Virus record (IMG/VR): IMGVR_UViG_3300007735_000650
Span: 1 to 34,327 of that record
Reading direction: 5' to 3' (one strand)
Source of the DNA: a virus
DNA: 34,327 bases
Position numbers and translations under genes: made by a program. Positions 17,422-33,273 of the stretch are shown one piece after another. Within the stretch, counting starts at the first letter, position 1; each line of letters starts with the position of its first letter. The notes under the pieces were generated by a model, which saw only the letters and a list, made by a program, of their open reading frames with translations, had not been told where the DNA came from and did no database searches.

Positions 17422-17509
17422 TGGTAGAGGCGGTGGGACTTGAACCCACAATACCGTTAAGGTCAGCAGATTTTGAGTCTGCCGCGTATGCCAGTTCCGC
17501 CACGCCTCC
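17422..17509 (-). tRNA. tRNA-Leu (anticodon CAA)
   Basis: A full cloverleaf can be drawn. The acceptor GGAGGCG pairs with CGCCTCT (one G-U). The anticodon stem GCAGA/TCTGC carries loop CTCAAAA, giving anticodon CAA (codon UUG). A class-II long variable arm (ACC/GGT stem) and T-arm GTGGG-TTCAAGT-CCCAC follow. CCA is encoded. Its 5' end (17509) directly abuts the stop codon of the deaminase gene (17510-17512), and the terminator follows within a few bases. Confidence 0.93.
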
Positions 17510-17928: not shown

Positions 17929-18005
17929 TGGTGTAAGCGGCAGGACTTGAACCCGCACCCAGCCTGTTATGAGCAGGCCGCTCTACCTGATTAAGCTACG
18001 CTTAC
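17929..18005 (-). tRNA. tRNA with CAU anticodon (Met elongator or Ile2)
   Basis: The acceptor GTAAGCG/CGCTTAC is perfect. The anticodon stem GCCTG/CAGGC has loop CTCATAA (anticodon CAU). The T-arm is GCGGG-TTCAAGT-CCTGC and CCA is encoded. A G1-C72 pair argues against an initiator. Met and lysidine-modified Ile (codon AUA) cannot be told apart here. The first bases GTAA contain the stop codon of the upstream gene. Confidence 0.92.
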
Positions 18006-23734: not shown

Positions 23735-25362
23735 AACTCCAATTCCGCCGCATCGCCTCTAGCAGAGATACCACGGACGATAAATTTTTTTCCAGACTTC
23801 AAAGTAGGGATGCCGGGCCATTTCAGAGTGACCGTGGAGCCAATAGGCACAGACCACCAATTGATACCGCCCGCGCGAGGCCCTATCCTCGCGGCCCATG
23901 TTCGGCGGGGCACTTTATAGATGGCGAGAAGGTTCTGGGCGATTGTAGACGCCGCTGTTTTTGATTCGAGAACGCCAGGAAACTCCGGTCCATCCACCGC
24001 CAATGGATATCTTACTTTAACATCAAGGTCAGTGGCGATAGCTATTCTGCGCTTTCGACTGTAGTAGTCTCTAGTAGCCGAGTTTATACTTTCCGATATA
24101 TCACTGCCTTCTTGAATCACATCTATTTCTTGATACGCCACACGAATACGCCACCAAGGAGGTAGGGAGCCAGATGTTTCTTCGGGAGCCGACAATTGCA
24201 TATAAGGTTCAATTACGATAGTCGAAGTCGCAGTTTGGGGGTCGTAGATAACGTCACCCTCAAAATTACCAAGAGAATTAGGCCCCCACCAAACTGAACC
24301 TAGCCCTGCCGCCAATCTATTAAGCGCATCTTCGGCGGTGCCTTCTCGGACAACGAGACCGACTTCGCTAGAAGGCCACGCCGAGAACGCACCAGAGGAG
24401 GCGGAAGTCACCGCACCCGTTACTCGCAAGATTTGGGCAGCAGCAAGACTTGCAGTGGATGCGTACCCACCATCCGTGCTCCCCCGAACATCAACCGTTA
24501 GGAATACGGGGTCAGCGTGTAATTTTATAAATCCGCCTGATTTATTAGATGCGTATTTACCTGTTCCAGGGCTTTCCAATAGTAGCGAAGTGTAAGACCC
24601 AACGTCCGCATGGAAAATTAGATTGACGCCCAAATCACGCACGGCGACAATTTCTTCAACAGCGCCATCATGGATTTGGTAAACGCGGTTAGCTGCATCT
24701 ATTAAAGTAGGTTGCATGTTGCGGACAAAGCCGAAAACTCTTGGCTTTGCTATGCCTTCCGCTTCTGTGCTTCCCTCCGTCCCTCCCGTCCCGGCGTATA
24801 GGTTGTTCGCCACAACTTGTAAATCTGCTGCTGCTGAGCGAAGTGGCATTCGCAGCGTGTCCGTACCTTCAAAGGCTTCTGAGGCTCGTAGCGAAGCGAC
24901 TTCTACCCATGTAGAACGCGCTGCATGGCGCGGACGGCGATGTGGAGCGCGGATCAACTTAACTCGTCGTCCCGCAATGGCCCATTCGCCTGCGATACTG
25001 TCTAGCGCGCCATCTACGTTGGTAAAGCGTAATTCACCAGCATCAATCTGGGCACGTCGCCCGTCGCTAGGATAGACAGGTATAGAGCGTTCGACTACTG
25101 GTGGTTCGAGCATACGGGGTGGGTATACACTTTGCGCGCCCGTATCTCCGGGTTCTTCAATCCAGCCTCGATCAGAAGCAACGATAGTGGCGACGGAGGT
25201 TATAGTGCTGCCTAGAGAATTAAGGGCGGACATAGGGCCGCCTGAAGGCATGAACAACTGAGAGGGGCGCGGATCACCAACGCCTTGTGGATCGGGGTTG
25301 ATCTCGATGAGCCAAACCGACTCCTCAATACCCGCGCTCGCTACAGTGATGGTCGAACTCAT
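23725..25362 (-). CDS. Tail-tip / baseplate hub-like protein
   Basis: The 545-residue protein follows the tape measure, the normal place for distal tail or hub proteins. The middle has KPRVFGFVRNMQPTLIDAAN and VYQIHDGAVEEIVAVRDLGV, a segment I recall from siphophage tail-tip proteins. The C-terminal part includes VPIGSTVTLKWPGIP and FIVRGISARGDAAELELWG, resembling a beta-rich hub domain. It should sit below the tail tube and hold the receptor-binding parts. The start overlaps the tape-measure stop (ATGA). Confidence 0.68.
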   Translation of the reverse strand: MSSTITVASAGIEESVWLIEINPDPQGVGDPRPSQLFMPSGGPMSALNSLGSTITSVATIVASDRGWIEEPGDTGAQSVYPPRMLEPPVVERSIPVYPSDGRRAQIDAGELRFTNVDGALDSIAGEWAIAGRRVKLIRAPHRRPRHAARSTWVEVASLRASEAFEGTDTLRMPLRSAAADLQVVANNLYAGTGGTEGSTEAEGIAKPRVFGFVRNMQPTLIDAANRVYQIHDGAVEEIVAVRDLGVNLIFHADVGSYTSLLLESPGTGKYASNKSGGFIKLHADPVFLTVDVRGSTDGGYASTASLAAAQILRVTGAVTSASSGAFSAWPSSEVGLVVREGTAEDALNRLAAGLGSVWWGPNSLGNFEGDVIYDPQTATSTIVIEPYMQLSAPEETSGSLPPWWRIRVAYQEIDVIQEGSDISESINSATRDYYSRKRRIAIATDLDVKVRYPLAVDGPEFPGVLESKTAASTIAQNLLAIYKVPRRTWAARIGPRAGGINWWSVPIGSTVTLKWPGIPTLKSGKKFIVRGISARGDAAELELWG

Positions 25363-28300
25363 TGTGCCCTCAGCCGAGTTGTCCGAAGTTCCTCTCGCAA
25401 CTCGCCAATCTGTATTCTAAGGTCACTTACAACGTCAACTAGGGCGGCACCTTGATCTCGATCATTCTCATCAACCGTTTCGCGTAGGTTGACAATTTCA
25501 TTTCGCACAGCCCGCAACTCAGCCACTACAGCCTGAGACCCGTTGCTGTTTACCTCAACACCAAGACGCCCGTCAGCGCCACGGCGCAGGGGCATAATGG
25601 CTTCGGGGCCTGCTTCGCCAAAGAGGGCCATGGGCGCCATGGTGGGGGAGTTTACGAAGTCAGGGATGCCGCCGTAGGCGTAGGCGGTGACGCGGCCATA
25701 TTTCATGACGGCGCCTAGTGCGGCAGGCATCGTCCCGTGCGACTCTATGCTTCCTCCGAAACTTCCACTTGAATTGGAATCTGGACTCATATAGTCCCCA
25801 ACACCTATGCTTCCTACAGAAGTTGATAGGTCCTGATTGGCCTGCTGAACCGCGTCTCTGATATCCTCTGCGATTGGCAATAACGCCGCCAACTTTTCAT
25901 CAAAACGCTGGCTATAGCCCAAAGACTCTGTAAGGGCTGCGTCTTGGCGGGCACCAAGAACCTCGGAGACAAGGGGCACGTCCGCCAAGTTCATCAAAGA
26001 CTGCGGACCAGAGGTAGGGGGTGCGTTCACCAAACCTTCTAGGCCCGGTACGACTTGGTTGCGGATATCGTAGAAGCTGGCAGTTGAGCCATAAATGCTA
26101 CGGGCTAGGTTTAACAATGTATCAGCGGATTGTGTAATCCGACTTATAGCCTCTTTATCACCCGCTTGTGCGGCGGCAAGGTCGCGGTTGAAAAGGTCTT
26201 GTGCCGCAGTCAAACGCCCCATGCCCGTGGTGCCAGAGAGTTCGCTGCTTGTACGAAGTGAATCTAGGTAGTCACGGATATTCTTCGTGCTTTCCTTGAT
26301 GACTTTTTCACGTTCGATGGCCTGTGTCTCTTCAAGCGCAATCAACAGTTTAGATTTTTCTTCTGCCGTGATGCCTAGCGCGTCGATAGAGGCGGTGAAA
26401 GATTCAATCTCCTTTTGCGCATTATAAGACATTTGGATTCGTTCTACTTCTTGATCCATGCCTTGTGCCGTAAGGCGACGAATCTCAAGGCCAAGCGCCA
26501 TGTCACGCAAGGACAGGTTACGCTGTTCTTCCAACTTAGCAATAGCCTTGTCCCGTGCAGCAAGAAGTTCTTCTTCATTGACTCCGTATTCTCGTGCTTT
26601 GGCAGCGGCCTGGGCAAAAGAGTCAATCAGCGCGTCCATCTGCTTCTTGAACTCAGGCACAGGGTCTTCGGTCAAACCCTTAATAGTATCTTGCAGGGCG
26701 ATGAAACCATCTACGAACTCTTGTAGTTTCTCAGGCCCAGCAAAGGAACGAGTTGATAGAGCCTTGTTCAGTTCTTCGTTGGCTGTTGCAGCGAACTGGA
26801 ACGAAGCAAGCGCCTGATCAAAACTTGCTGCTTCGCCATATCCGAGATTACCCATACCATACTTGTTGCCGCCTACGGCACGCGCACCAGAGACCGTCAA
26901 ACCTCGTTGCTTGAGGTAAGCATTGATCGCAGGTATTTTGGCGCTGGCTTCTTGGAATTGGGCGCGGCCTTGTTCATTGTAGTACATATCCGTCATGGCG
27001 AGGAGGCCATTTTGAGAACGAATAGCGTAGCTAAATCCGTTACTTGATTCTTTGGGGCCGAAGAGGCCGCCGAGGCCGCCACCGGCAAGACCGCCGATCA
27101 GCGCCGCCGCTATGGGGCCAAGGGGACCAAGGAGACCAGCGCCAGCAAGCAATGCGCCAGCAGCAGAGCCTAGGCCGCTGCCGACCATGCCGCCTGTTTG
27201 GTTACCGCCTATCATGGAGTTCAAGAAGGTGCCCGCACCAAAGCCGAGACCCGCTGCGCCAAGGAAGCCGCCGAGAGTTAGGCCGCCTGTAGCGGGAGCG
27301 ACAGCAACACCACTCGCATCCATGAACAAAGATGCTGTGGCGGGGGATACGCCAGAAGGCGCAAAAATCTGAGTGCTTAGCAAACCACCTGGGCCGGTTA
27401 AACCCAACGAGCCAAAAATTCCCTCCTTGGGGATAAGCGAAGATAGGCCGAGCATCTGCATGATGCCGGGTCCACCCCCCGCCGCAGCGCCAGCGCCGCC
27501 CATCACAGATAGACCTGCGCCTAAAGTCGGGAGCGAAGTCCCGGCGAAAATTGAGTTGATGATTGGGTTTACAATACCAAGGCGCAGGATAGATTGGATG
27601 ATGGACGACATGACGCCACGAATGACGTTGCCGAAGTTGAGGGCGCGGATTTCGCCCTTAGCGAAGGCTTCTGTAATGGCGTCGCCAACCTGCTCAAATG
27701 CCTTTACGCCGATGTTGGCGAGTTCTCTGTAAGAATTGTCAAGATGTTGGTTTTCTTCGCGAAGTTTGACAGTTTTGCGAGCAAGCTGTTCTGCCTCAGC
27801 CACAACTCCAGGATCGCTGCCTTTAAGTTGCTGGCGGGCGCGGAAAGCCGCCAACTCCTGTTCACGAAAAACGACGCTTTCGCCAAGAAGGCTGCGCTCT
27901 TTTTCGAGTAGGGCGATTTCGTCTTCGCGCTGCTTGGTGTTGGCTTTTACGGCCTCAGTATCTTTTTCTTGCTGCGTCCGTTCACGCATCAAGGGCAGGA
28001 TGGCAGCGAGTGCTTTTTTATAAGCCTCGGACCCTTTAACACCGTAGTCGAGCGCCTTGGTCTGCGCCTTGATCTGCACTTCCATATCTTCGCCTGCAAG
28101 CGTGCTTTGCTTGTAGGCATCCAATAGACCTTGGTGCGTTTGTATTTCGATTTCCAAAGTCTCAGTATATTTACGGAGGCTTTTTTCGGCGCCAGACGCT
28201 TTCTTGTCGTTCCTAGCAAGTGCTTCGTTGTAATCATCGAGGATTTTCTGTGCGCCCGGTATTTTCGCAGCAGCCGCCGCTCTGACTTGCTCCAAAAACA

Positions 28301-31082
28301 AAGTTGTATCGACAACAGCCTTAGTGTCTTTGGTTGTTTGTCGGTATGCGTCTTGGAGAACTTTTTCACCAGCCTTTAAATCCTGGGCCTCTTTAACTGA
28401 AACATATCCGCTAAAACTCAGTCGCGTTCGTGCCCCCGCAGCCATCGGCAGGTTTTCTACTGGGGGAATTGCTTCTAAGGGACGACCACCTTCAATATTT
28501 TGGCGGATCGAAGTAAGAGATTGTAAGCCTTGTTGGGCTATGCCAAGCAATCCAGTTAACCGGAGAACTTCAGAAATAGCGTTACCGATATTCTGCAAAT
28601 TGACGGGGCTTTGGATAATCTTTATAAAATTTGCTGCTGCGTTAGAGAACGCGGATAGCGCGCCTGAACCATCTGGTGTTTTTTCAATAATAACTTTCAT
28701 TTCTGATTGAATTTTAGAAAGTTTTTCTACAAAATCCGCTAGAGGCATTTCCCCTTTTTTAACACTTTCATACCAAGCGTTTAGGTTTTCTACAGCCTTA
28801 CTAATCTGCGTGTTATACGCAGGGAGCGCCCCTGCTGCTTGTTGTAAGGAACTGACAACTTGAAAAAACTCCGCTTTGGGCATGATAGAAGAAAGGCGAT
28901 TCTGAGCCTCTTCTATCCGAGTTTCAAGTTCTTTTACACTCCTCTTGGCCTCTTCTTCCTGCACTTTGAGCGCCATAACCAGCGCCTTGGAAGCCTCATA
29001 CCCAAGTTTCCTGTAAGAAGTAATCAGCTTTTCGAAATCACTTTCTGCACTCGAAGCCGCTCGCGAAGTCCCAGATATCAAAGCGGCGTTTACCGCAGTA
29101 ATGCGGTCGGACAAATTCGCGTATGTTTTGTCAAACTGCTTTACTGCGTTATCAAATTGATCCAAGTCTCTCGCAGGGCCGCGCATCAAACCCGCGATAC
29201 CCGCACCAACCGCTGCAACGGCGATGCTGATGGCTACCCACTTAGATGCTAGTGCCGTTAGAATACGAACGAAACCAACAGCGGCAAACGCAGTAAGCGC
29301 CCCCGCCACCAAATCAAGGTTATTGGCTAGAGTTACAAGCGACTTAGCAAGGACTTCAACCGCGCCAGATTCACGGGCGGTTTCAATCAACTTGCGGATT
29401 TGGTCGGTAGTAGAAATTAACGCTTCATCAAAACCTGCTTCCTTGAAAAGCATATTGGTTTTAGTCAATTCGGTCGTGAGCCTGCCGAACGCAGAACCAA
29501 CAGACTGCGACGTGCGGTTGAGGGTTTCCGCGCCACCAGAAAGTGCATAAATCTGTCGAACAAATTCTACTGCGTAGCGTCTTGTATCGATTGTGCCTTC
29601 TTCAAAACGCTTATTCAAATCAGATTGCTTGCCGTCAACCTTAGTGACAGCCCGTTCAAGTGCCGCCATAGCCACGGGAAGTCGGTCGCCCATTTGATTT
29701 CGCACTTCTTCAGCCATGAACTTGCCCTTGGACATGGACTGTTCAAGAGCGCGGATGACGCCCATTGTCTCAGCAGAAGAAAGTCCGAAGTTACGAGAGG
29801 CACCTACCAACTCAGAGAAGACTTCTCGTGTCTCTGCGCCTTGGAAGCCTGCGCCCTTCATAGCTAGAGATAGGCGCGCAAAAGAGTTGCCTACATCGCC
29901 AACAGCAAAGCCAACTCGGTTTGCTTCTTCAAAAAGGAAATTAAGATTACGTTGAAAACCAAGAGAGCCTTCTGAAACGGTTTTTAGCGTATTAACAAAC
30001 TTATCAATTTCTAAGCCCGCTTGAATGATCTCACGCAACGCGAGGGTGCCTGAAAGCGCGCTAAGAGCGGCAGTGGTGCTGAAAACAACGCGACTAAAGC
30101 CGCCCAACGAAGCATTGGCAGCGCCAAAAGCCGCCGAGAAGACGCGGGCATTATCGCTGATGCGAGGTAGCAACCCTCCTACGCGGGCAATTTCGCTGCT
30201 CAGCCCCCGCATGGTTGCCTTGAACGCGCCCGCAGCCCTGTCAGCCTCAAGGCTCTTTACGCCGTGGGTATTCAGTGCCGAAGTATATCGCGCTAAGGCC
30301 ACTTCTGCTTGCCGTATGATGCCAGCCCCTGTTTCGGGCGAAAGCTGCCTACCTGCGCGCAAAATGATGCCTTGGGCAGCCCCTTGCGCCTGTTGCAATT
30401 TGGCTTGTAAAGCACGCGCCGATTTGTCAATCTGAGCAGTCGCTTTCTTTTCCTGATCCGCATAGAAAGAAGCGAGATCATTTTGCCGCCCTGTTCCACC
30501 GGATGTAAGTCGGTCAATCAGGCTCTGATACCCACCGGCCTGCCGAAAAACGGCGCGAGACCCCTGCATCGCTTCTTTCGCCGCGCGCACAGCTTCCGCC
30601 GCGTTCTTCTTAGCCTCCGTTGCGCGCTGGTTCTCAAGTTTAATAACAGAGTCAATGCCCGTCTTAGTCTGCTCAATCGCTTGATTGTAGCGGCGCGTTG
30701 CCCGGTCTATCTGAATCGTAGTCGCATTGACGTTGCTTGCCACGCGGTTATACTGCTCAAAAGCACGATTAACGCGGTTCATAGTGTCCGCGCGCATACC
30801 TTCTGATAATGCGTGCTTGTTAACTAGGCGGGTAACCTGCTCATATTTCTTGGCGCCTTCTTCGAGGCGCTTTTCCATTTTTGCGAACGCGCTCTCGCTC
30901 TTTGAAGCCCACTTTTCAAGAGACTGCGCGGACTGAGATTGCTTTGCAGACGCCGCGCCAATATTACCTACAGACTTCTCTACCTTAGCCGCAACCGCCG
31001 CAAGTTTATCCAACGCCTGAACTGCGGCGCTGACCGACTTGGTATCAACTTTGACTGTAAGATTAGCAACTGAATCCGACAA
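25359..31082 (-). CDS. Tape measure protein, 1907 aa
   Basis: This is the longest gene. Residues 1-340 are coiled-coil rich. About 350-530 match the tape-measure N-terminal domain (NTLKTVSEGSLGFQRNLNFL, EANRVGFAVGDVGNSFARLS, SMSKGKFMAEEVRNQMGDRL). A hydrophobic stretch lies near 587-630, more coiled coils follow, then a long Gly/Ala-rich hydrophobic region near 1194-1344 (27.05-27.5 kb) and a C-terminal coiled coil. It sets tail length and helps DNA entry. At about 0.15 nm per residue it predicts a tail near 285 nm, long for a siphovirus. It starts 2 nt after the chaperone frame ends. Confidence 0.93.
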   Translation of the reverse strand: MSDSVANLTVKVDTKSVSAAVQALDKLAAVAAKVEKSVGNIGAASAKQSQSAQSLEKWASKSESAFAKMEKRLEEGAKKYEQVTRLVNKHALSEGMRADTMNRVNRAFEQYNRVASNVNATTIQIDRATRRYNQAIEQTKTGIDSVIKLENQRATEAKKNAAEAVRAAKEAMQGSRAVFRQAGGYQSLIDRLTSGGTGRQNDLASFYADQEKKATAQIDKSARALQAKLQQAQGAAQGIILRAGRQLSPETGAGIIRQAEVALARYTSALNTHGVKSLEADRAAGAFKATMRGLSSEIARVGGLLPRISDNARVFSAAFGAANASLGGFSRVVFSTTAALSALSGTLALREIIQAGLEIDKFVNTLKTVSEGSLGFQRNLNFLFEEANRVGFAVGDVGNSFARLSLAMKGAGFQGAETREVFSELVGASRNFGLSSAETMGVIRALEQSMSKGKFMAEEVRNQMGDRLPVAMAALERAVTKVDGKQSDLNKRFEEGTIDTRRYAVEFVRQIYALSGGAETLNRTSQSVGSAFGRLTTELTKTNMLFKEAGFDEALISTTDQIRKLIETARESGAVEVLAKSLVTLANNLDLVAGALTAFAAVGFVRILTALASKWVAISIAVAAVGAGIAGLMRGPARDLDQFDNAVKQFDKTYANLSDRITAVNAALISGTSRAASSAESDFEKLITSYRKLGYEASKALVMALKVQEEEAKRSVKELETRIEEAQNRLSSIMPKAEFFQVVSSLQQAAGALPAYNTQISKAVENLNAWYESVKKGEMPLADFVEKLSKIQSEMKVIIEKTPDGSGALSAFSNAAANFIKIIQSPVNLQNIGNAISEVLRLTGLLGIAQQGLQSLTSIRQNIEGGRPLEAIPPVENLPMAAGARTRLSFSGYVSVKEAQDLKAGEKVLQDAYRQTTKDTKAVVDTTLFLEQVRAAAAAKIPGAQKILDDYNEALARNDKKASGAEKSLRKYTETLEIEIQTHQGLLDAYKQSTLAGEDMEVQIKAQTKALDYGVKGSEAYKKALAAILPLMRERTQQEKDTEAVKANTKQREDEIALLEKERSLLGESVVFREQELAAFRARQQLKGSDPGVVAEAEQLARKTVKLREENQHLDNSYRELANIGVKAFEQVGDAITEAFAKGEIRALNFGNVIRGVMSSIIQSILRLGIVNPIINSIFAGTSLPTLGAGLSVMGGAGAAAGGGPGIMQMLGLSSLIPKEGIFGSLGLTGPGGLLSTQIFAPSGVSPATASLFMDASGVAVAPATGGLTLGGFLGAAGLGFGAGTFLNSMIGGNQTGGMVGSGLGSAAGALLAGAGLLGPLGPIAAALIGGLAGGGLGGLFGPKESSNGFSYAIRSQNGLLAMTDMYYNEQGRAQFQEASAKIPAINAYLKQRGLTVSGARAVGGNKYGMGNLGYGEAASFDQALASFQFAATANEELNKALSTRSFAGPEKLQEFVDGFIALQDTIKGLTEDPVPEFKKQMDALIDSFAQAAAKAREYGVNEEELLAARDKAIAKLEEQRNLSLRDMALGLEIRRLTAQGMDQEVERIQMSYNAQKEIESFTASIDALGITAEEKSKLLIALEETQAIEREKVIKESTKNIRDYLDSLRTSSELSGTTGMGRLTAAQDLFNRDLAAAQAGDKEAISRITQSADTLLNLARSIYGSTASFYDIRNQVVPGLEGLVNAPPTSGPQSLMNLADVPLVSEVLGARQDAALTESLGYSQRFDEKLAALLPIAEDIRDAVQQANQDLSTSVGSIGVGDYMSPDSNSSGSFGGSIESHGTMPAALGAVMKYGRVTAYAYGGIPDFVNSPTMAPMALFGEAGPEAIMPLRRGADGRLGVEVNSNGSQAVVAELRAVRNEIVNLRETVDENDRDQGAALVDVVSDLRIQIGELREELRTTRLRAQ

Positions 31083-31084
31083 CC

Positions 31085-31498
31085 CTACCCCCGTCTAGTC
31101 GATCTCTTTGGCGCAGGCATAACTTCGGATTTCTTTGCCGCGTCCTTCGCTGCCCTCGCTGCTTTGGCAAGGTCGGCTTGAGCATTGAGGAACGCGCTGT
31201 CAATAACTTTTATAGCGCGTATCTCATATGGAAGCAATACACGGCCTGATAACCTTATATACGCTTCAATCTCCAAATATGTCAAAGGATTTGGCGAAAA
31301 GCCGTTTGAGCCCCGCGTTGCCTGCAAGTCAAAGAAACTTCCCCACGCAAAAGTAAATTCTTCAGGCATTGGGGGAATATCAAGCCTCGCCTCCAGTTCA
31401 AGGCGTTGCTGCCGTGAAGCTGGATCGTTTCTCCTAGATAAAACGCCTAAAGCACGAGTGAGGCTGTCAACCTCACTCGTGCCATCTTCCTTCTTCAA
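31085..31498 (-). CDS. Tail assembly chaperone, T-type frame (read by +1 frameshift)
   Basis: The annotated-style frame has 137 residues from a TTG with a poor ribosome-binding site. The frame is open upstream to 31552, where it meets the end of the G-type gene, so it is probably made as a G-T fusion by +1 frameshifting at 31551-31559. TYLEIEAYIRLSGRVLLPYE is typical of siphophage second chaperones. The C-terminus is Ala/Lys-rich. G and GT chaperones coat the tape measure and recruit tail-tube protein. The fusion would be about 288 residues. Confidence 0.75.
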   Translation of the reverse strand: MKKEDGTSEVDSLTRALGVLSRRNDPASRQQRLELEARLDIPPMPEEFTFAWGSFFDLQATRGSNGFSPNPLTYLEIEAYIRLSGRVLLPYEIRAIKVIDSAFLNAQADLAKAARAAKDAAKKSEVMPAPKRSTRRG

Positions 31499-31550
31499 AT
31501 TAAGCGCGAAATAACTTTCCGCGTGGTCTTTGAGAAGGTCTAGGCTATCC

Positions 31551-31559
31551 TCAAAGAAA
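31551..31559 (-). other. Putative +1 programmed frameshift site (TTT-CTT-TGA)
   Basis: The G-type gene ends ACG-TTT-CTT-TGA. CTT-TGA is the slippery/stop pair of bacterial prfB. Skipping one base gives GAG-GAT-AGC and so on, 18 open codons that join the T-type frame. No upstream Shine-Dalgarno stimulator like that of prfB is visible. Confidence 0.65.
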
Positions 31560-31952
31560 CGTGGCGCGGTCGTCTAGCGCCTCGCTGACCTGCTCCTTGA
31601 TCCACGAGAAACGCAGGTCGGTATAGACGGTGCGTGCAGCAGTATCAGATAGCGGCACATTTAGCGGCGTGCCGTCAAGGCCGATCAGATACCAATCCTT
31701 CGTAGCGGCAACCAGCGCCTCAGCCCGCTCGGCCTCAAGCTCATCAGCCGTCATAGTGACGCGCCCACGCATCTTGAGGCGCTTGTTGAGTGCCGCCTTC
31801 TGCACCCGCTGCACTTCAGGGCTGTCTAGGCTGACAACGGAGATAAAGGCTTCCTTGCCATCTGCATCGCGCAGCGGTTGGCGCGTCTTTGGGTGTAGAA
31901 TAGTGACGGGGACGGCGTTGGAGACATCGACGGCGAGGGCGTCAAGGGACAT
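31551..31952 (-). CDS. Tail assembly chaperone, G-type
   Basis: The 133-residue product precedes the T-type frame and tape measure, the fixed place of gpG-like chaperones. It contains PVTILHPKTRQPLRDADGKE, AFISVVSLDSPEVQRVQ, a charged helix (ELEAERAEALVAA) and DWYLIGLDGTPL, typical of tail chaperones of this type. It ends ATFL at a CTT-TGA frameshift site. ATG 31952 has GGAGG 11 nt upstream; a TTG at 31961 is too close to it. It is transcribed from a promoter-like element at 31992-32020 just after the tail-tube terminator. Confidence 0.8.
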   Translation of the reverse strand: MSLDALAVDVSNAVPVTILHPKTRQPLRDADGKEAFISVVSLDSPEVQRVQKAALNKRLKMRGRVTMTADELEAERAEALVAATKDWYLIGLDGTPLNVPLSDTAARTVYTDLRFSWIKEQVSEALDDRATFL

Positions 31953-32023: not shown

Positions 32024-32052
32024 AAAAAAAGAGGCGCCTTTCGGCGCCTCTT
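32024..32052 (-). terminator. Strong intrinsic terminator after the tail-tube gene
   Basis: On the minus strand a 10-bp stem, AAGAGGCGCC/GGCGCCTCTT, with GAAA tetraloop is followed by seven T residues in a row. It ends the tail-tube transcript 24 bp after the stop codon. Confidence 0.92.
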
Positions 32053-32076: not shown

Positions 32077-33273
32077 TTATCCGTTGCCTCGCTGGATGAC
32101 AATAGAGGACGTGCCCTGCGCCGTATTTGCCGTAAGTGGCTTGAGGGCTACGAAAGGCATGGTCACGGTGATGCCGGTATCTGGGCTGTCATCGACATCG
32201 CCACCACTATATTTGATGCGCGGCAGGATCAGGTTGACAAACTCAGTTGTGCTATCAAGCGCGTCCTTATTCTGCAAACGCAGAATCAGCGTGCTTTCAG
32301 TCTCAGACACGAACTTGTTGTGCATCGTGGCGTTGGTGAAGAGGATGGTGATTGTCCCCGTCACGTCAGCAAAACGACCGAACAGAAGGTCAGGCGTGAG
32401 ATTGGTGCCGACAACCTGCGGCCCGGCCATATTGTTGTTGACCGTGATTTCCGCAGCGGTCACGAGGCCAAGCACGCTGCCGCCTTCGTAAAGTTCACCG
32501 TTCACGGCAGCAAACGGAGTAGTCTGCGGCGTTGCGGTGTAAGAAGAAGCAACGGACGATCCAAAGCTAGTGCCATCCTGGCCAATGACGCCGAAGGTCA
32601 CGCCAACTAGGCCCGAAGCAGGGACCGAAATGGTCATCTGGTTGAAGCGCACACCCTTGAACTGCTGATAGAGGCTGCGGTCGGTCAGCCAACGCTCGAT
32701 AGTGAAAGAACGATAGGTGGTCCCAATTTCCACCTTCTGCCCTGCAACACGAATAACGGCGGAAGCGGTTGCGGTCGTTCCGATAGTGCCGGGTTCCACT
32801 TCAATGGTTGAAACGCCGACGCTCAGGGCTGTGAAGAAGCGATCGGTCAAACCAGCAACGGCGGGAGTTGCGCTGACCGCGAACACATCACCGACGCGCA
32901 CACCGTTGGTCGGGAAGTTTGCAGAGCCGCAAGTGATGCGGTTTGTAGCGGAATTAGAGACGACACTTGAAAAATTGACTGAAGCGCCAGAGGCCCAAGT
33001 GCCGCCCATAATTGCCTGGATAAAGTCATCCCAAGACTGCTGCGAAAGTTCGCCCACAATATCGCCAGTTACCGAGCGATACCCATGGCGGATATCCTGG
33101 CGCATACGGTCAGAGCGACGCTCCTCAGACTGGTAGGCTTCCTTCTGAAGATTGACTGAAAAACTTACGTCACGGATGCGCTGAAAAGCAGAACTAACGG
33201 GAGTGGAGCCAAAAACACTTTCGGCAACATACCCGATTTCAGTAAGCGAGCCCGCTGCAATTGAACCGCTCAT
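32077..33273 (-). CDS. Major tail tube protein
   Basis: The 398-residue protein begins MSGSIAAGSLTEIGYVAESV and continues TPVSSAFQRIRDVSFSVNLQ and RHGYRSVTGDIVGELSQQSW, the start of the Phage_tube_2-type tail-tube family. The middle (about 90-165) looks like an inserted beta-domain (VRVGDVFAVSATPAVAGLTD). The C-terminal part has FGRFADVTGTITILFTNATM. It polymerises into the tail tube. It has its own promoter (33340-33368), a leader hairpin and a strong terminator, consistent with high expression. The start follows TTAGGAGAA. Confidence 0.88.
   Translation of the reverse strand: MSGSIAAGSLTEIGYVAESVFGSTPVSSAFQRIRDVSFSVNLQKEAYQSEERRSDRMRQDIRHGYRSVTGDIVGELSQQSWDDFIQAIMGGTWASGASVNFSSVVSNSATNRITCGSANFPTNGVRVGDVFAVSATPAVAGLTDRFFTALSVGVSTIEVEPGTIGTTATASAVIRVAGQKVEIGTTYRSFTIERWLTDRSLYQQFKGVRFNQMTISVPASGLVGVTFGVIGQDGTSFGSSVASSYTATPQTTPFAAVNGELYEGGSVLGLVTAAEITVNNNMAGPQVVGTNLTPDLLFGRFADVTGTITILFTNATMHNKFVSETESTLILRLQNKDALDSTTEFVNLILPRIKYSGGDVDDSPDTGITVTMPFVALKPLTANTAQGTSSIVIQRGNG

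Follow-up and report, generated by a model that had tools for sequence, protein, structure and literature searches.

A putative +1 frameshift at a UUU-pyrimidine site joining the G- and T-type tail assembly chaperone frames of a phage

How the second of two overlapping chaperone frames is translated is the question raised by the tail operon of the viral sequence analysed here (the window: the whole stretch of 34,327 nucleotides, IMG/VR virus record IMGVR_UViG_3300007735_000650). The two frames, G and T, overlap between the genes for the tail tube and the tape measure protein (Table 1), which is the standard location of the lambda-type G–GT pair. Lambda-type tail assembly chaperones are made by a −1 frameshift (Xu, Hendrix and Duda, 2004; reviewed in PMC5009743). 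The locus shares with them the two chaperone parts in this position, a fusion near the end of G and a tail chaperone domain in T. However, T lies here in the +1 frame, and a single P-site tRNA at UUU-Y would take the place of the tandem slip on a heptamer. We propose that G and T form a lambda-type G–GT tail assembly chaperone produced through programmed +1 ribosomal frameshifting. The original prediction, made from the window alone, had also proposed a +1 fusion, placing the slip at CUU-UGA in the manner of prfB, the release factor 2 (RF2) gene.

The G and T frames and their junction

Gene G is preceded by a Shine-Dalgarno-like AGGAGG, and its product matches PHROG 313, 'tail assembly chaperone' (6.9e-10). 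The protein ends in ...DDRATFL, encoded by GCC ACG TTT CTT TGA, with the last four codons at 31562-31551. The T product matches Pfam PF23812, Phage_TAC_18, with 50.1 bits against a cut-off of 27 (3.1e-13). Its frame is +1 (or −2) relative to G and opens 7 codons ahead of the GAG at 31552. The coordinates, the sequence and the count of 18 codons in the bridge that follows had all been given correctly in the original prediction.

Table 1. Features of the chaperone locus and its neighbours in the window
Feature	Coordinates	Strand	Details
Gene G, tail assembly chaperone (G-type)	31551..31952	minus	133 aa; stop TGA 31553-31551
T frame	31552-31085	minus	155 aa; stop TAG 31087-31085
T-type extension, +1 reading TTT GAG GAT ...	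31085..31555	minus	PF23812; codon-position variation
Open bridge, 18 sense codons from GAG 31552 to TTG 31498-31496	31499..31552	minus	Conserved at protein level; third-position variation in T frame
Candidate slip codon UUU (Phe), followed by C (31556)	31557..31559	minus	UUU-Y invariant in all +1 relatives of both groups
CTT TGA, originally predicted site	31551..31556	minus	CTT third base T/C/A, codon TCT in one clade; TGA constant in clade
Folded RNA right after the shift site, candidate 3' stimulator	31442..31552	minus	Lowest z of 350 windows
Tail tube gene	32077..33273	minus	Phage_tube_2, 2e-41
Tape measure gene	25359..31082	minus	TMP_3, 6e-21; PHROG 2335

G, T and the tail tube served as queries to collect relatives from viral contigs, and tblastn with G returned 15 of them. 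The +1 relation and the open bridge are kept in all distinct relatives of the window's branch, which is more than chance would give. The original claim of a G–GT fusion entered through the +1 frame is supported, although −1 is the usual direction in this family. Furthermore, the bridge varies as a coding sequence of T: across its 18 codons the variable columns at the three codon positions number 6, 2 and 16 when counted in the T frame, and 16, 6 and 2 when counted in the G frame. The period of variation switches at the site, falling mostly on G-frame third positions before it and on T-frame third positions after it.

In public records of related phages T is entered as a hypothetical protein of its own, and it could in that case be translated alone, from TTG 31498 or another start, with no fusion. 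It had been noted originally that the only start of T is a TTG with a weak site, and this holds: TTG 31498 is the sole T-frame start in the window, and no Shine-Dalgarno sequence is visible ahead of it. However, CTG, ACC, ACT or CTT replaces this codon in relatives, so it is not a conserved start. In the clade with CTA before the G stop (six contigs, L071-L076, five loci of which could be examined), neither ATG, GTG nor TTG occurs between the opening of the T frame, 7 codons ahead of GAG, and a point 60 codons past it. T is therefore reachable in that clade only by a shift within the 7-codon overlap. Apart from the window, the CTT-clade relatives carry a T-frame TTG 8 codons before GAG. The window shares with L004 and the CTA clade a TAG that closes the frame at that place, and the upstream TTG is thus not a conserved start either. 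With the bridge conserved as protein and no start conserved, an internal start for T was rejected, and separate translation of T is regarded as highly improbable.

Even less credence is given to transcriptional slippage, or to a single gene having been split by an error in sequencing or assembly. Nothing specific favours either, the same frame break recurs in many independent contigs of several clades, and the longest T run at the site is TTT (TTTT in one clade). These comparisons indicate that a longer G–T fusion is almost certainly made by a ribosomal frameshift near the end of G.

Candidate slip codons in the overlap

The overlap of the window holds no −1 slippery heptamer (X_XXY_YYZ), T being in the +1/−2 frame, and contains two codons able to re-pair in +1. 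The Phe codon UUU would move to UUC with three Watson-Crick pairs, while CUU would move to UUU with one Watson-Crick and two G-U pairs. The latter is the slip of the original prediction, a prfB-like shifty stop in which the tRNA before UGA slips forward while RF2 is awaited, with the RF2 level setting the G:GT ratio. CTT-TGA is indeed present in the window and in most close relatives, UGA comes directly next in every member of the window's branch, and CUU_U is the best known +1 site, that of E. coli prfB (PMC5009743). However, the codon before UGA varies. It is CTC in L004, whose T is 99% identical (a variant known from one contig), CTA in L071-L076 and, in L077-L079, part of TTT TCT TGA. This codon re-pairs in +1 only as CUU, so that three of its four forms (CUC, CUA and UCU) cannot take part in such a slip. 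In contrast, UUU re-pairs fully in every lineage, with UUC or, in the UCU clade, with UUU, and UUU-Y is the sole overlap codon with +1 re-pairing in all of them. What all these lineages have in common is thus a UUU with a pyrimidine behind it.

The prfB shift needs CUU_U, a Shine-Dalgarno-like element just upstream and a UGA that is nearly always followed by C (PMC5009743). The window shares the +1 direction and the letters CUU UGA, but UGAG or UGAA is found in all members and CUU is not conserved. No Shine-Dalgarno-like stimulator is present upstream of CUU, where the anti-Shine-Dalgarno pairing amounts to 0.1 kcal/mol, compared with −10.7 for the E. coli prfB element. A prfB-type cassette was consequently rejected on the Shine-Dalgarno element, the UGAC context and the conservation of CUU. 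Beyond the letters CTTTGA in one clade, nothing speaks for a read-out of RF2 that sets the G:GT ratio, and the attractive idea of RF2 sensing by the phage has been removed as unsupported. Since UGA is always directly next in the window's clade, a shifty stop with poor re-pairing, in the style of the antizyme UCC-UGA, could act there. Against any shift that depends on the stop stands the second +1 group described below, most members of which lack a stop beside the site. Slippage of the tRNA before UGA is accordingly considered unlikely.

The same frame would be reached by a −2 shift, the class of the phage Mu G–GT. The P-site Leu-tRNA would then step from CUN back onto UUC, and the join would gain one residue (ATFLF-EDSLDLLK). 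Re-pairing of CUU or CUC on UUC is acceptable (gWW), but CUA re-pairs poorly, UCU would need a G-U pair at the middle position, and nothing comparable exists in the UUU_CGN group. A tandem slip is impossible because UUU would land on CGU. As it accounts only for CUU and CUC, the −2 slip was rejected and appears very improbable.

As to the site, the pairing patterns of the relatives suggest that the Phe-tRNA probably slips +1 at UUU_Y. Most ribosomes would end G at UGA. A minority would pause while Phe-tRNA occupies UUU in the P site; this tRNA (anticodon GAA) would re-pair one base forward, with the overlapping UUC or, in the UCU clade, with UUU. The ribosome would then continue into T to yield GT, a protein of 288 aa and about 32 kDa with the join ...ATFF-EDSLDLLK. 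The junction originally predicted, TFL followed by EDSLDLLK, would change accordingly from ATFL-EDSLDLLK to ATFF-EDSLDLLK at the same length. The tryptic junction peptide predicted for +1 at UUU is ATFFEDSLDLLK; those predicted otherwise are ATFLEDSLDLLK for a slip at CUU and ATFLFEDSLDLLK for −2. By analogy with lambda, the G:GT ratio may serve tail assembly.

A point against this model is that CTT, which would stand in the A site, is used more often in the window than any other Leu codon (27 per 1000) and is therefore not an obvious slow codon. Synonymous constraint was set aside as evidence: codons −5 to 0 are invariant in 15 sequences, and an equally invariant run is found at −15 to −11.

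Errors of the +1 type at UUU-U/C were reportedly described in E. coli argI by Fu and Parker in 1994. In influenza A PA-X a +1 shift at UUU_C has been demonstrated by mass spectrometry, and its authors predicted a wider UUU_C class (PMC3498833). The proposed slip resembles it in the P-site Phe-tRNA on UUU, the following C and the re-pairing to UUC, while the A-site CGN of PA-X is shared only by the Limnohabitans/Curvibacter group. The window differs in belonging to a DNA phage of a bacterial host, in its A-site CUU (CUC, CUA or UCU in relatives) and in its strong downstream fold. Phage SPP1 gp17.1 involves a +1 shift at CCC_U (PMC6316719). There, too, the end of a tail gene holds a slip between synonymous codons that overlap, but the product is a tail tube protein, the codons are those of proline and a stop codon stands directly in the A site. 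Known or likely +1 tail chaperones have also been described in HSTV-2 (PMC5009743) and, as forward sites, in actinobacteriophages (PMC10274946). Like the present pair, they fuse a tail chaperone by +1, but they belong to other virus lineages. A literature search with most subscription journals outside its coverage returned no report of UUU_Y in a phage tail chaperone.

Relatives in the +1 and −1 frames

Conservation among related phages had been put forward as a check on both the open bridge and CTT-TGA. The bridge has been kept and CTT-TGA has not; relatives without CTT-TGA that retain two frames and a good start for the second had been named as counter-evidence, and in these relatives the loss is seen but the good start is absent.

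Limnohabitans phage DC31 and Curvibacter phage P26059A led to a second +1 group. Besides phages of Limnohabitans and Curvibacter it includes about 48 contigs, and its T homologue lies in +1 at UUU_CGN, with sites of the forms AAY UUU CGN, UUU UGC and UUU CAA. The overlaps mostly measure 8-17 nt (for example, AAC TTT CGA TCC GAG TGA), and the stop lies mostly 2-4 codons from the site. A slow stop therefore cannot explain the shift in this group, which leaves UUU-Y as the shared element; it is also the sole codon that re-pairs well across the whole group. In L163, L169 and L200, of the DC31 group, UUU_UGC or UUU_CAA stands in place of UUU_CGN, so that an A-site Arg codon is favoured and not required. 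The two isolates both carry UUU_CGA +1 sites, DC31 at locus L060 (PQ492658, 2462-2854) and P26059A at L146 (KY981271, 1360-1737). In public annotations of such phages T is either given as a separate gene or left out: the T frame is missing in DC31 and appears as a separate hypothetical protein in P26059A.

In most other TAC_18 pairs examined, T lies in the −1 frame. The heptamers of these relatives, such as A AAU UUU, U UUU UUG or A AAU UUC, fall on the homologous Phe codon close to where G ends. The +1 groups have C or U after UUU and, ahead of it, ACG or mostly AAC, which no longer permits the −1 tandem slip. Close to the DC31 group, L196-L199 read ACA AAU UUU ACG and have T in −1. A search of genome contigs added only two distant loci: L139, with a readable overlap, is −1, and no T was identified in L140. 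Bradleyvirinae-type loci (L142, L143, L144, L148 and L149) encode −1 chaperones whose site reads CTTTTTTTC, with a longer T run than a heptamer requires.

In a tree of 87 T sequences the direction changes 3 times, and well supported branches require at least 2 of these changes. Because the AU test does not reject a single +1 clade (p 0.35), independent +1 origins are not claimed. On balance, we favour the view that the Phage_TAC_18 family has changed the direction of its programmed shift, between −1 and +1, at one and the same Phe codon (A_AAU_UUU versus AAC/ACG_UUU_Y). The +1 members would then represent a bacterial UUU_Y single-tRNA class, with UUU_CGN in one lineage and UUU_CUN or UUU_UCU plus a large downstream fold in the lineage of the window.

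Downstream RNA and neighbouring features

Directly 3' of the G stop lies a fold that was absent from the original prediction. When the minus strand of the tail operon is folded in 350 windows, each 111 nt long (mean z-score −0.5, sd 1.2), the lowest z belongs to 31552-31442 (−7.8; −6.7 when repeated 2 nt shifted), and the same region scores between −3.9 and −8.0 in relatives. Two hairpins, at 31523-31505 and about 31483-31451, keep their pairs in 90.8% of cells over 15 distinct sequences, compared with at most 58% in slid controls. Covariation is scarce, only two pairs having changed on both sides among these 15 sequences. Single sequences fold strongly, but RNAalifold gives a weak consensus when all clades are combined, and hence a structured region is claimed, not one conserved fold. 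The detail of the fold differs between clades. In L077 (2394-2513), an 11-bp perfect hairpin (AUGCAGAGCGA/UCGCUCUGCAU) lies 26 nt after the G stop, in a register different from that of the hairpin found at this place in the window. The two sequences folded from the DC31 group are weaker, with z of −2 to −3.

The downstream fold is likely to be a 3' stimulator whose exact shape varies by clade. The sequence data suggest that the shift occurs, that it takes place at UUU and that downstream RNA promotes it. The related contigs, numbering more than 60, form a natural comparison set for one codon that acts either as a −1 or as a +1 site. They make testable what a bacterial ribosome needs for efficient +1 shifting on UUU-Y, in terms of the E-site codon, the A-site codon and the downstream RNA.

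Two further features were observed on the minus strand of the window. The phage encodes a tRNA-Leu (anticodon CAA) at 17422-17509 and a tRNA-Met (CAT) at 17929-18005. Moreover, a strong hairpin resembling an intrinsic terminator lies at 32029-32052, between the tail tube gene and G (AAGAGGCGCC GAAA GGCGCCTCTT, then a T run), and may cause the chaperone and tape measure genes to be transcribed less than the tail tube gene.
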